Below, piece after piece: positions 8,293 through 61,973 of a stretch of 64,000 nucleotides of DNA. Numbering within the stretch: the stretch's first letter is position 1; every line of letters begins with the position of its first letter. The DNA is from Aliihoeflea aestuarii (GTDB lineage Bacteria > Pseudomonadota > Alphaproteobacteria > Rhizobiales > Rhizobiaceae): positions 496,001 through 560,000 of the forward strand of contig NZ_JAAAMK010000003.1 of the NCBI RefSeq assembly GCF_024105665.1, written 5' to 3'. A program made the translations under genes and the position numbers. Under the pieces are notes generated by a model, which was not told where the DNA came from, did not search any database, and saw only the letters and a program-made list of their open reading frames with translations.

Positions 8293-8344
8293 CTTGTTGC
8301 CTCCTTCGTTTTCGTGTTGAAGGACAGGCGCCGGATGTTTGCGT

Positions 8345-8430
8345 CTAATCCCTCCGCCGGTATGAGCCGGATCAGGTTCTGCGGGTTGGCACGACGCCTC
8401 TCAGCCGCGACGAACGCGGCACCCCGTTAG
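8345..8430 (-). promoter_or_regulatory. TPP riboswitch (THI element)
   Basis: Read on the minus strand, the region carries the conserved THI-box parts in order: GGGGTGCC near the 5' side, GGCTGAGAGG, ACCCGCAGAACCTGATC, then CATACCGGCGGAGGGA near the 3' end. It lies about 50 bases before the thiB start. The known role of the family is TPP-induced shut-off of transcription or translation. Here it should repress thiBPQ when TPP is plentiful. No strong intrinsic terminator is seen between it and thiB, so control of translation start is more likely; that is inference. Confidence 0.95.
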
Positions 8431-8480
8431 ATGGCAAAGACATAGAATGCGTTGCAGGCGGGCGCAAGCGCTCCTTGATG

Positions 8481-43092: not shown

Positions 43093-43306
43093 GACAGTGC
43101 GGGTGTTTCGATTCGAAACCTTCGAAATGCGTTACCGGGAAGGATCGAATTTATCGCGCCGCATCAACTCAATAGTAACCTTAATGCTCGGTAAAAATTA
43201 TATTATTCAATAGGATAGGCTCTTATCTCGTGTCCGATGCCCGATCTGGCGTCGTGCGTGCTTTTGCCTCGACATGCGGCCGCAGCGGCCGGCGAGGAGA
43301 GACGAG

Positions 43307-44677
43307 ATGGCACGGGTTTTGAAATCGGCACGAGGCTTTGCGGCGGACAGGCGCGGCAATTTCGCGATCCTGATGGGTGTCGCCCTGTCGGTCCTTGCGA
43401 CCGGTGCCGGTTTCAGCGTCAACACGGCGCAGCTCTTCAACGCCAAATCCGCACTCCAGACCGCGCTCGACGCGGCGGTGACGTCGACGGCGCGCGATCT
43501 GACGACCGGCGTGATCGCGGAAGGGGACGCGCGCGGGTCGATCGAAGCGTTCCTAACCGCGAATGGCAGCGGTCCGTTCGCGCGCGAAGGGGAAGGGGTC
43601 GTGACGCTCGACGAGGTGATCGTCGACCGCAACGCCAAGACCGTCGATGCCACGGCGACCGCCAATGTCGCGCTTGCGTTTCCGCTGTTCGGCGCAGACC
43701 CGGTCCGGCCGGTCAGCGCGCGCACGGCGGCGGTCTATTCGGACCAGAAGGTCGAGGTCGCGATGATGCTCGACGTGACGGGGTCGATGAGCGGGCAGAA
43801 GATTCGTGATCTCAGGGCGGCGGCCCGTATCGCCGTTGAGGCGTTTTTGGGCAATCAGCGTGCGGGATACGAGCGAGTGCGCGTTTCGATCGTGCCATAT
43901 GCCAATTCCGTCAATGCCGGATCGCTTGCCGAAAGCAGTGTGTTCGTCGAGCGCAGTGTGGCGGACCGCAAGGCGGCCCCTGCCAATACTGCCGCAAGGC
44001 CGGTTGCCACGCGGCCCGACAATTGCGCGACCGAGCGCAAGGACGCGCGCTATCGCTACAGCGACGCCGGTCCTGAGTATTCGATGGTCAACCGTGACTA
44101 TCTGATCGACGATTTCATTCGCTATCGCGACGGGAACGACAAAAGCCGAACATGCCCGACTACCGCGATCGTCCCGCTTACCAGCGACAGCGGAAGCTTG
44201 AACCGGGCGATCGACAGCTTCAAGGCGGTCGGCGGCACAGGAGGCCATATCGGCGTCCAGTGGACGTGGTACATGCTTTCTGAGCGGTGGGCAGGAGTTC
44301 TGCCGAGCGCGTCGCGCCCGGCGCGGATTACCGACAACGTCAAAAAATACGCGATCCTGATGACGGACGGCGAGTTCAACCTGTCCTATTTCGACGCATC
44401 GAACTACGGCCAGGTCTATAATGACAACGGCAAGCGGCAGACCCGCGACGAGGCGGTGCGTCTGTGTCGCGAGATGAAGGCGCAGGGGATCGAGATATTC
44501 ACCATCGGATTCGCTTTGGCAGGTGAAAACTCGCATGCGCACCGAACAATGCGCGAGTGCGCGTCAGCCGGAACGCAGTCGTGGCGCTATTTTTTCGATG
44601 TTGCGACGGGTGACGAATTGAAAGTCGCGTTTCGCGACATCGCCGGTACGATCAGCGGGCTTTATATGAGCAAATAG
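43307..44677 (+). CDS. TadG-like pilus assembly protein with VWA domain
   Basis: A 456-residue protein with the TadE/TadG N-terminus: RGFAADRRGNFAILMGVALS, a single membrane segment, and the typical QLFNAKSALQTALDAAVTS repeat. A VWA domain starts near 155 with VAMMLDVTGSMSGQK (MIDAS) and continues to KKYAILMTDGEFNLSYFD near 350. In tad loci, TadG-like proteins anchor to the inner membrane and support Flp pilus secretion. No other tad/cpa gene is nearby, so this is an orphan copy. GAGGAGA supports the start at 43307. A bidirectional terminator follows. Confidence 0.85.
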   Translation: MARVLKSARGFAADRRGNFAILMGVALSVLATGAGFSVNTAQLFNAKSALQTALDAAVTSTARDLTTGVIAEGDARGSIEAFLTANGSGPFAREGEGVVTLDEVIVDRNAKTVDATATANVALAFPLFGADPVRPVSARTAAVYSDQKVEVAMMLDVTGSMSGQKIRDLRAAARIAVEAFLGNQRAGYERVRVSIVPYANSVNAGSLAESSVFVERSVADRKAAPANTAARPVATRPDNCATERKDARYRYSDAGPEYSMVNRDYLIDDFIRYRDGNDKSRTCPTTAIVPLTSDSGSLNRAIDSFKAVGGTGGHIGVQWTWYMLSERWAGVLPSASRPARITDNVKKYAILMTDGEFNLSYFDASNYGQVYNDNGKRQTRDEAVRLCREMKAQGIEIFTIGFALAGENSHAHRTMRECASAGTQSWRYFFDVATGDELKVAFRDIAGTISGLYMSK

Positions 44678-44709
44678 AAAAAGGGCCGCCCTTCGAGGCG
44701 GCCCTTTCG
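44676..44709. terminator. Bidirectional terminator between tadG-like gene and the micro-ORF element
   Basis: Stem GGGCCGCC / GGCGGCCC with loop CTTCGA. The plus strand is followed by TTTCG after the stem, and the minus strand by five T. The T-run is better for the minus strand, so it probably ends the micro-ORF transcript as well as the tadG-like one. Confidence 0.85.
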
Positions 44710-44771
44710 TGTTTCCGTCCGTGGCGCGACCCGTGCGGCAGAAGACTGCCGTCGTTCGCGTCACGCGCCTG

Positions 44772-44840
44772 TCAGGAAGATTGCTTCCCGAAAGGACGAT
44801 CCGCCGGGACCACGCTACGGAACATGGAATCACTCGACAT
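44772..44840 (-). CDS. 22-codon micro-ORF with an unusually complete Shine-Dalgarno
   Basis: On the minus strand CTGAAAGGAGGTGATCCG directly precedes an ATG at 44840. AAAGGAGGTGATCC complements the 3' end of 16S rRNA over about 14 bases, far more than any other gene here. The peptide starts MSSDSMFRSVVPADRPF and ends GKQSS before a TGA at 44772-44774. There is no signal or membrane segment. Upstream is a stem-loop that starts immediately after the MFS gene stop; downstream are a small CGGCAG/CTGCCG hairpin and a terminator with a T-run. This could be a highly translated micro-protein, a leader peptide, or a structured RNA. No family recognised. Confidence 0.5.
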   Translation of the reverse strand: MSSDSMFRSVVPADRPFGKQSS

Positions 44841-44861
44841 CGGATCACCTCCTTTCAGTTC

Positions 44862-44906
44862 GTTGAACACGGCCCCAATGTGGGCGCTTCGAACGGTGCT
44901 GGCAAC
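44862..44906 (-). ncRNA. Predicted structured leader of the micro-ORF
   Basis: Read on the minus strand, GTTG (5') pairs with CAAC (3'), AGCAC pairs with GTGTT, and an inner GCCC-ACATT-GGGGC-type hairpin sits at the top. The structure starts directly after the MFS stop codon and ends just before the AAAGGAGGTGATCC site. Folding was judged by eye only; no known RNA family is assigned. Confidence 0.4.
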
Positions 44907-44911
44907 CCCCG

Positions 44912-46324
44912 TCAGCGTGTCTCGCCGTGGCGGCTCTTCACGAAAGGCAACAGAGCCAGCCCGATGATGAACAGGACGATGATCGGCGTGACCCCGACGC
45001 GCTGCGCGTCGACCGGCGACAGGCCGAACCCTTCCGACGCCACGATGCCCGTCACGACGGCGATGGAGAGCGGGCCGATAAAGGAGGTCGCCTTGCCCGA
45101 CAATGCGTAAAGGCCGAAGGCTTCCGTGACGCGGTCCTTGTCGACCTGATCAACGAGAAGCGTGCGAGAGGACGCCTGGATCGACCCGCCCGCGGCCCCG
45201 ATCAGGCAGCCGGCGACGTAGAAGACGATCACCGGCAGACCGCTGCCATCGGCGACGGGCATGAAGAGCATCTGCGTCTGCGTGGTCGAAATGATAAGCG
45301 CGCAGGACAGAGCGAGGGTGACCGCCGACCAGCCGACGACGAGCTTGGGGCCGTAGCGCTGGTCCATGCGTCCGCCGACATAGGCGCCGATCGCGCCGGT
45401 GATGTTGGACAATATGCCGAAAATGCCGATCTGGATGATCGAGAGGCCGAGCACGCCGGCCGCGTAGATGCCGCCGAACGCGTAAAGCGCGTTGAGCCCG
45501 TCGCGATAGAACATGGACGAGATCAGGAACGAGAAATAGCTGCGCTCGGACGGCAGGCGCTTCAGCGTCTGGCCGAGCTTCGTCAGGCCGTCGCGGATCG
45601 CGCCCTTGATCGCTGGCTTGCGCTTGATGTCGGGCGTGAAGAGCATCATCGGCAGAAGGAAAACCAGATACCAGAGCGCCGTCAGCGGCCCGGCGGCGCG
45701 GTCGCCCTCGCGGGCGGCCGGATCGAGGCCGAAGATCGGCTCGAAGCCGAGCAGCGTGCGGCCGGTTTCCGGCGAGGCGGACATGAAGCCGAGGACGAGG
45801 ATCAGCGAGATCAGACCGCCGACATAGCCGAGACCCCAGGCCGACCCCGACAGGCGGCCGAGTTCGGCGCGGGGCACCAGCGTCGGCATCATGGCGTTGT
45901 TGAAGACGGCGGCGTATTCCATGCCGAAGACGGCGAGCGCGACGATGACGAGTATCCACGTCAGGTCGCTCATGCCGGGCGTCGCGAACCAGAGCATCCA
46001 GCAGGCGAAGATGCCGACGACGGAGAAAACCGTGATCCACGGCTTACGCGGACCGCTGACATCGGCGATGGCGCCGAGGACCGGCGAGGAAAAGGCGATC
46101 AGCAGCCCGCCGATGCCGGTGGCATAGCCCCATAATTCCTGTCCGCGGGCCGCATCCGGCGCGACGGCGGCGGCGAAATAGGGCGCGAAGACGAAGGTGA
46201 TGATGAGCGTGTGGAAGGGCTGCTGTGCCCAGTCGAACAGCATCCATCCCCAGATGCCGCGCCGCGAGGCGCGTTCCTGGTTGTCGCGCTGTAAAGCGCC
46301 GTCGCTCGTGTCAGTGCTCACCAT
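44912..46324 (-). CDS. MFS transporter, UMF1/Atg22-like family
   Basis: A 470-residue inner-membrane transporter with about twelve membrane segments. Family signs are the N-terminal WGWMLFDWAQQPFHTLIITF (near 25), GVLAIAD-like SSPVLGAIADVSGPRKPWI near 80, NNAMMPTLVPRAELGRLSGS near 142 and SIQASSRTLLVDQVDKDRVTEAFGLYAL near 385 (given in parts). The family includes proteins related to yeast Atg22 (vacuolar amino acid efflux), but bacterial substrates are unknown. The gene ends exactly where the micro-ORF leader begins. Confidence 0.9.
   Translation of the reverse strand: MVSTDTSDGALQRDNQERASRRGIWGWMLFDWAQQPFHTLIITFVFAPYFAAAVAPDAARGQELWGYATGIGGLLIAFSSPVLGAIADVSGPRKPWITVFSVVGIFACWMLWFATPGMSDLTWILVIVALAVFGMEYAAVFNNAMMPTLVPRAELGRLSGSAWGLGYVGGLISLILVLGFMSASPETGRTLLGFEPIFGLDPAAREGDRAAGPLTALWYLVFLLPMMLFTPDIKRKPAIKGAIRDGLTKLGQTLKRLPSERSYFSFLISSMFYRDGLNALYAFGGIYAAGVLGLSIIQIGIFGILSNITGAIGAYVGGRMDQRYGPKLVVGWSAVTLALSCALIISTTQTQMLFMPVADGSGLPVIVFYVAGCLIGAAGGSIQASSRTLLVDQVDKDRVTEAFGLYALSGKATSFIGPLSIAVVTGIVASEGFGLSPVDAQRVGVTPIIVLFIIGLALLPFVKSRHGETR

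Positions 46325-61897: not shown

Positions 61898-61973
<76 letters not shown>

Follow-up and report, generated by a model that had tools for sequence, protein, structure and literature searches.

On the minus strand of a 64,000-nucleotide stretch of the Aliihoeflea aestuarii genome (contig NZ_JAAAMK010000003.1, positions 496,001 to 560,000; this whole stretch is called the window) we identified, by its sequence, a diverged homologue of CC2171, a small RNA (sRNA) of Caulobacter filed in Rfam as RF01867. The element lies between the end of a gene of the major facilitator superfamily (44912-46324, ATG22/MFS_1) and a convergent Tad/VWA gene (43274-44677). A preliminary description of the locus had suggested a self-contained small mRNA or an RNA that binds 30S subunits, and this proposal is now well supported by features predicted in the element and in its relatives, namely the promoter position, the terminator, the Shine-Dalgarno (SD) element, the reading frame, the stop codon and covarying helices. 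The more specific reading that we favour, tentatively, is that of a structured, translated small regulatory RNA of ~190 nt, which may respond to 30S subunits, as a switch or a trap.

Along the minus strand the order is TTGCCA, 17 bp, CACATT, CAAC, GAAAGGAGGTGATCC, ATG, a 22-codon open reading frame (ORF) and a terminator with 13 pairs. The features are the following:

44678-44869, minus strand: whole element, spanned in full by a match to our covariance model R1 (model positions 1-173, 60.4 bits, E 9.9e-17)
44900-44905, minus strand: putative -35 box TTGCCA, 17 bp from the -10 box; the best-scoring pair in the window
44877-44882, minus strand: putative -10 box CACATT; predicted transcription start near 44869
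44857-44869, minus strand: short 5' leader TGTTCAACGAACT with the CAAC conserved in the family consensus; unpaired with a mean probability of 0.71 in window-type elements
44842-44856, minus strand: SD element GAAAGGAGGTGATCC, complementary to 15 bases of the 16S rRNA 3' tail
44772-44840, minus strand: 22-codon ORF with its stop (ATG 44840-44838, TGA 44774-44772)
44826-44833, minus strand: 5' arm of helix P1, GUGAUUCC, codons 3-5; pairs with the P1 3' arm
44709-44716, minus strand: 3' arm of P1, GGAAACAC; abuts the terminator and covaries in relatives
44841-44846, minus strand: 5' arm of helix P2, GAUCCG, formed by the 3' end of the SD element and the base that follows it
44798-44803, minus strand: 3' arm of P2, CGGAUC, codons 13-15, at nt +38 in the window
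44775-44788, minus strand: hairpin P3, GGAAG-CAAU-CUUCC, ending at the stop codon
44737-44750, minus strand: small hairpin GGCAG-TCTT-CTGCC, seen in the window sequence
44679-44708, minus strand: intrinsic terminator, 13-pair stem and T-run, seen in the window sequence

The ORF, the small hairpin and the terminator with its T-run are thus all present as the preliminary description had reported them.

Relation to the CC2171 family and distribution

Using cmscan at a relaxed threshold, the window matched RF01867 over model positions 1-159 with 36.1 bits (E 3.4e-6), and so falls below the gathering threshold of 75 bits. The order of the parts (CAAC, SD arm, codon-3 helix, terminator) was matched across the whole model; the codon-3 helix and the inner region of the alignment contain several non-standard pairs. 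When RF01867 was searched in 61 relatives, 32 gave a match at E <=0.001 and one passed the gathering threshold. Locus L031 scored 93.6 bits in RF01867 and is also one of the 48 rows from which R1 was built, an intermediate linking the window to RF01867. Judged in this way, the window element is a diverged CC2171 homologue that lies below the Rfam cut-off and is connected to the family by intermediates.

The rows of R1 are 48 sequences of the 'VSHC' type, and the window sequence is not among them. The preliminary description had named a covariance-model search in related genomes as a check on the element; at E <=0.001 R1 matched 43 of the 61 genomes, 42 of them end to end over model positions 1-173 (that of A. 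aestuarii included) and one in the terminator part only. Three of the 61 genomes had given rows to R1, and the full-span matches of G043 and G006 contain large internal deletions. R1 also matched all ten of a set of chosen genomes; four of these had contributed rows and six were independent, the latter including Novosphingobium, Rhodobacterales and Bradyrhizobium loci. Two full-length R1 matches were found in G672, the genome of locus L143.

Searches by sequence gave a similar distribution. A blastn match was present in 38 of the 61 genomes (own included), four of the 38 matching at the terminator end only. The exact pattern AGGAGGTGATCNNRTGTC occurred in 77 of 385 alphaproteobacterial genomes and its reversed control in 0/385, and the pattern GAAAGGAGGTGATCCNRTGTC, with up to two mismatches, in 101 of the 385 against 1 for the control. 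In a sample of the phylum, 40 of 67 Alphaproteobacteria carried a match vs 4 of 182 others, those all with two mismatches (reversed control, 3/249). The named genomes contributed at least 117 matching stretches, and the 80 titles listed are all Alphaproteobacteria, from several orders, or unplaced Proteobacteria. A local artefact or a chance match was rejected on these counts against reversed controls and on the uniqueness of the match in the window and the assembly.

Mobile origins were also considered and rejected. Six viral contigs match the pattern, five with peptides of the chromosomal types and one (L244) with a different protein and a similar SD; plasmid matches comprise three Azospirillum replicons at 18% query coverage. 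The site of L244 (10076-10095) is the start of a phage-like protein preceded by a full-length SD and is apparently unrelated to the element. Of note, G072 was the only one of the 101 matching genomes with two sites (L269 and L270), one of the MSHCH and one of the MSHGSA type.

The 16S-complementary arm and the reading frame

The preliminary description had claimed a complementarity of about 14 bases to the anti-Shine-Dalgarno sequence on the minus strand. The match is exact: the 14-mer AAAGGAGGTGATCC lies at 44855-44842 of that strand, and together with the preceding G it makes 15 bases complementary to the 16S tail. It is the sole match in the window at up to two mismatches (0.21 expected), and RRAGGAGGTGATCC occurs once in the 4.1-Mb assembly. 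The tail sequence, ...GGATCACCTCCTTTCT (GGAUCACCUCCUUUCU), is present in three of the 61 genomes searched, the A. aestuarii assembly itself being without a 16S 3' end.

The arm/tail duplex has a predicted energy of -29.7 kcal/mol, against -10.3 kcal/mol for a made-up AGGAGG control. Alphaproteobacteria generally use SDs, and we compared the arm with the starts of 757 ordinary ORFs (>=150 aa, taken from the window and the 117 named loci). Their tail-pairing energies had a median of -9.6, a 1% quantile of -17.5 and an extreme of -24.8 kcal/mol; exact tail matches longer than 8 bases were limited to one of them (13 bases), which bears out the earlier remark that such complete complementarity is rare. 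Across 249 elements the median was -29.9 and the weakest value -21.3 kcal/mol, although these elements were chosen by their SD pattern and the median is therefore as expected by construction. At the starts examined of the bS21 genes of the same genome no SD this strong was found, the best reaching -15.3 kcal/mol at a TTG. It had further been remarked that the opposite strand mimics the 16S tail; this follows from the complementarity, but the start codon, promoter and terminator are all on the minus strand.

The variation of the arm retains this pairing. Among 102 sites from the scan with up to two mismatches, 53 carry one or two mismatches to the 21-base pattern, which fall at positions 1 (11 sites), 2 (5), 4 (1), 12 (13), 13 (1) and 15 (20), at the start codon (R to T, 6) and at bases 3' of it. 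All 13 changes at position 12 are A to G, and 14 of the 20 at position 15 are C to T; each of these retains a G-U pair with 16S, and therefore most internal changes preserve pairing with the tail. Positions 6, 7, 10 and 11 were altered only in two sites (G423 and G228) that are apparently chance matches, and positions 3, 5, 8, 9 and 14 were unaltered among the 53. Because GAUCC hardly changes and its internal partner varies by order, we infer that the 16S tail is probably the only partner common to all elements.

The ORF begins 1 nt 3' of the arm and would encode MSSDSMFRSVVPADRPFGKQSS. None of 186 elements has a stop in frame 0 within codons 2-13, and frames +1 and +2 are interrupted there in 69 and 77. 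Past the ORF, a stop within 12 codons was found in 40, 62 and 86 of 184 elements by frame, frame 0 being no longer closed. Its length is fixed at 18 codons in Rhodobacterales (20/20) and Sphingomonadales (27/29) and at 14 in Bradyrhizobium (9/10), and is mostly 20-27 elsewhere; all three kinds of start codon occur, and all three stop codons are used at one same place. These frame counts and fixed lengths indicate that reading frame and stop are conserved.

Codon-position differences gave a different picture for the peptide. From codon 7 to the end, positions 1/2/3 differed 192/207/149 times in 47 pairs of the window's type, and 58/64/49 (10 pairs), 468/543/327 (139), 621/525/540 (160) and 8/8/0 (8) times in four other groups, counts that come from non-independent pairs and are distorted by RNA pairing. 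By this measure purifying selection on the amino-acid sequence was not found in any of the five groups, a pattern contrary to that expected of a conserved protein, and conserved wobble bases fall, by eye, in pairing stretches. The ORF product had no Pfam match, which carries little weight at 22 residues. Translation thus seems to have been selected and the peptide not. Conservation in relatives, on which the preliminary description had made the element depend, is seen in the stems and the SD; that of the peptide is, as far as sequences can tell, no more than RNA pairing can explain.

In six loci (L066, L167, L213, L286, L287 and L296) the reading frame that follows this SD is 55-59 codons long, rather than 14-30, and its predicted N-terminus resembles a signal peptide. 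L167 belongs to Azospirillum, L296 differs in its second codon and may be unrelated, and the P1 arms of L066 are still strongly complementary.

Helices, promoter and ends of the RNA

P1 ties codons 3-5 to the segment directly 5' of the terminator. Of 194 elements, 170 yielded a terminator-like site and 24 none, a count made without a shuffled control; the shuffle and permutation tests of P1 covered the 161 elements in which such a site was found and whose full length is 110-260. Own arms fitted better on average than arms permuted within the group, with 0/2000 permutations as good, in three groups (n=39, 46 and 24). In the window's type this effect lies in the mean fit. Against shuffled sequences P1 stood out in 29/39, 11/24, 19/22, 3/20 and 1/10 elements of the other types. 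The P1 pairs of the window are GUG/CAC and UUCC/GGAA, with one A-A mismatch, and compensation is exemplified in relatives by CATTGTC/GACAATG, CATTGCC/GGCAATG, CATCGTT/GACGATG, GCATTTT/AAAATGC and ATGAGAT/ATCTCAT.

P2 pairs GAUCC and the next base with a segment of the ORF that in most cases lies at nt +27 to +43. At least five of its six pairs form in 85 of 179 Rhizobiales-like elements vs 53 on average, and 67 at most, after permutation. We aligned 48 of the 61 elements of the VSHC type; in P2 and the extended P1 taken together, 81.1% of cells were paired vs at most 42.4% in slid registers, a control biased towards this structure, which was read from one row. In the same alignment two-sided changes affect 14 of the 20 pairs and 46 cells; 0/500 shuffles reached these measures, and 5/500 were as good in further pair types. 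P1 and P2 cross, forming either a pseudoknot or alternating helices. These pair counts, together with the within-group permutation, superseded a first covariation test (MAFFT, 3' segments), which was dropped because two groups were misaligned and ancestry was a confounder. RNAalifold on mixed alignments gave little signal.

At the position of P3, a hairpin with a stem of at least 5 pairs and a 4-base loop was found in 46 of 75 elements of the window's type vs 12% in shuffles; its loop is CARY in 46/46, and it ends a median of one base 5' of the stop codon. Outside this type such a hairpin was found in 0/32 Sphingomonadales, and loops in other types are of mixed sequence. In Rhodobacterales and Bradyrhizobium the SD or the start codon falls within other predicted helices. 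The pre-terminator segment of Rhodobacterales (such as L101, L112 and L155) reads, by eye, R-Y-CUCC in 19/20 rows, an anti-SD-like motif able to pair with their own SD, GGAGGUG.

Upstream of the arm, the preliminary description had placed a two-stem leader, which we abandoned in favour of a probable promoter. In 41 of 54 window-type elements (a count without a shuffled control) the best-scoring -10 begins between -24 and -27 relative to the SD, so that the -35/-10 pair of the window forms a putative promoter at an offset from the SD that relatives of most types keep; in the Sphingomonadales type no such promoter stands out, the score reaching >=7 in 4/34. The model matches have their 5' limits at 44869 (R1) and 44864 (RF01867). 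Because the R1 match begins only at 44869, the stems upstream of that point are most likely not transcribed. Elsewhere in the window a thiamine pyrophosphate (TPP) riboswitch (RF00059, 72.7 bits) lies at 8332-8436 and a tRNA-Ala(CGC) gene at 61898-61973, both on the minus strand.

Candidate functions and comparison with known systems

In the regulatory RNA that we favour, the 16S tail would capture the 15-nt arm and so dislodge the ORF segment that holds GAUCC in P2. An initiating ribosome would have to open P1 and would then translate to the fixed stop, which in the window's type adjoins a hairpin. Ribosome binding and translation to the stop could in this way remodel the RNA, which would stay folded when no 30S subunit is free or when its tail is hidden. 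The result would be two folds, ribosome-bound and ribosome-free, presumably differing in stability or in the pairing of the released 3' segment.

Several observations weigh against this reading. The label 'switch' is deduced from anatomy. Predicted folding gave no clearly free toehold, the mean unpaired probabilities of SD bases 1-9 and 10-15 being 0.46 and 0.47 in the window's type and 0.55 and 0.45 in the VSHC type, and our confidence is lowered for this reason. Three genomes (L021, L059 and L266) have GGAAGG in the SD, with all 16S pairs kept and one A bulged. The permutation effect of P1 was not found in Rhodobacterales (n=20) or Bradyrhizobium (n=10), and in Sphingomonadales (n=22) P1 is invariant and hence uninformative in that test. 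In the window's own type P1 stood out from shuffles in 18/46 elements, and six of its seven pairs occur in 5/46, inside the permuted range (mean 2.6, maximum 8); for the window itself 5/50 shuffles fitted as well. P2 at five or more of six pairs is confined to the 85 of 179 elements mentioned above, reaches 5/6 in 2/61 elements of the other three types, and is mostly lacking at that level in the A12-to-G variants. To these must be added the bias of the slid control, the distortion of the codon-position counts and the fact that stop counts differ between frames after the ORF too.

Four other explanations were weighed. The element could be a gene for a small protein: a functional peptide of 14-30 residues would be made from a short mRNA with a maximal SD, and RNA structure would be secondary. 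The conserved frame and stop speak for this, as do within-lineage motifs (MSS..EQPS, MSHGS and VSR..LERGVGT) and the 55-59-codon frames with a signal-peptide-like start in some Azospirillum-like and related loci; in Sinorhizobium meliloti, translated small ORFs were reported on annotated sRNAs (33% of 54 non-annotated small ORFs; PMC10117765). Yet codon positions 1 and 2 differ as much as or more than position 3 in four of the five groups and differences are never mainly at position 3, wobble positions are, by eye, invariant in pairing stretches, the EQPS motif falls where P3 and its CARY loop lie, and no peptide is common across orders, so that we regard a peptide function as rather unlikely. 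A trans-acting sRNA or sponge, whose G-rich arm pairs with CCUCC-type sRNA loops or with 16S and whose translation is incidental, would suit an RNA that is stand-alone, structured, terminated and catalogued as an sRNA family, and the Caulobacter RNAs SisA-D share a 10-mer with an anti-SD signature (PMC12559287). We consider it improbable, since the conservation reaches through UGAUC, which a CCUCC loop does not need, and extends to start codon, frame and stop.

The pairing energy itself would suit a bare ribosome sink, that is, an RNA sequestering 30S subunits in an unusually stable complex and thereby lowering initiation elsewhere; the extended-SD rpsU mRNA of Flavobacterium johnsoniae forms unusually stable complexes even without tRNA (PMC9976891). 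Such a sink would require very high abundance and has no need of a fixed ORF length or of P1 covariation, and we think it quite improbable. The preliminary description had also offered a leader peptide. A short ORF, hairpins and a terminator do resemble trpL-type leaders, but in the window the downstream tad gene is convergent, downstream neighbours vary in identity and strand between lineages and are kept only within lineages, and no regulatory codon or residue run common to the peptides was seen by eye. A cis-acting attenuator or leader of a downstream gene was rejected on the first two of these grounds and is very improbable indeed.

Returning to the translated regulatory RNA, a bolder version would make it a class-wide sensor of ribosome state. 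The arm would tell ordinary 30S subunits from those with an accessible tail, such as idle or immature subunits or subunits without bS21; once the tail is captured, translation of a fixed-length ORF indifferent to its peptide would flip the RNA between two folds, and the cell would read its own small-subunit pool. We put this forward as a speculation that is unlikely as it stands. Should the RNA indeed capture 30S subunits or report on them, ribosome state would be read out directly by an RNA. In any event, an sRNA first filed from Caulobacter has relatives in many Alphaproteobacteria with a conserved frame and an apparently irrelevant peptide sequence, its match to the 16S tail is longer than in the 757 ordinary ORFs examined, and a non-coding label can hide a reading frame.

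With RF01867 the window element shares, in the same order, the 5' CAAC, the GAAAGGAGGUGAUCC arm, the start region, the codon-3 helix and the terminator, and differs from it in the sub-threshold score given above. Our literature search, which did not extend to the original Caulobacter sRNA survey, found neither a 16S-tail match nor an ORF described for the CC2171 family. That survey is reportedly the one by Landt et al. 2008. In the available parts of the papers naming the accession, MH_s33 of Mesorhizobium huakuii is annotated with RF01867 as a 215-nt unit, which we take to be an RNA-seq transcript (PMC5596092), and RF01867 is named in a table of Rfam structure updates (PMC11701678); no ORF, 16S-tail match or class-wide spread was seen in these parts. 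Within the limits of these searches, the combination of a whole-tail arm with a peptide-indifferent ORF is an undescribed property.

Three further systems are comparable. In F. johnsoniae the extended SD of rpsU is read by a subpopulation of ribosomes, those lacking bS21 (PMC9976891), a precedent that speaks for the reading favoured here. The rpsU mRNA of Bacteroidota and the window element have in common an exceptional pairing with the 16S tail, and the element is likewise a candidate for selective reading by a ribosome subpopulation; rpsU, however, encodes bS21, whereas the window element is structured and stand-alone and has no conserved protein. Its ORF does not encode bS21, having 22 codons and no Pfam match, and the two bS21 matches of the genome are on other contigs. 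The rnTrpL/peTrpL system of S. meliloti likewise comprises a short translated ORF in a small RNA with a role in trans (PMC7298713; PMC10117765), but it is leaderless, derives from the trp attenuator and yields a functional peptide, in contrast to the putative promoter of its own, the strong SD and the lack of an operon in the window element. Finally, in Staphylococcus aureus SD pairing extends from the core towards the start codon, as it does here, an extension that according to its authors bS21 would hinder in E. coli (PMC13009471); there the extension adds two base pairs, which were observed in a single mRNA and are predicted for many, whereas in the window element pairing would amount to 15 bases in one conserved small RNA.

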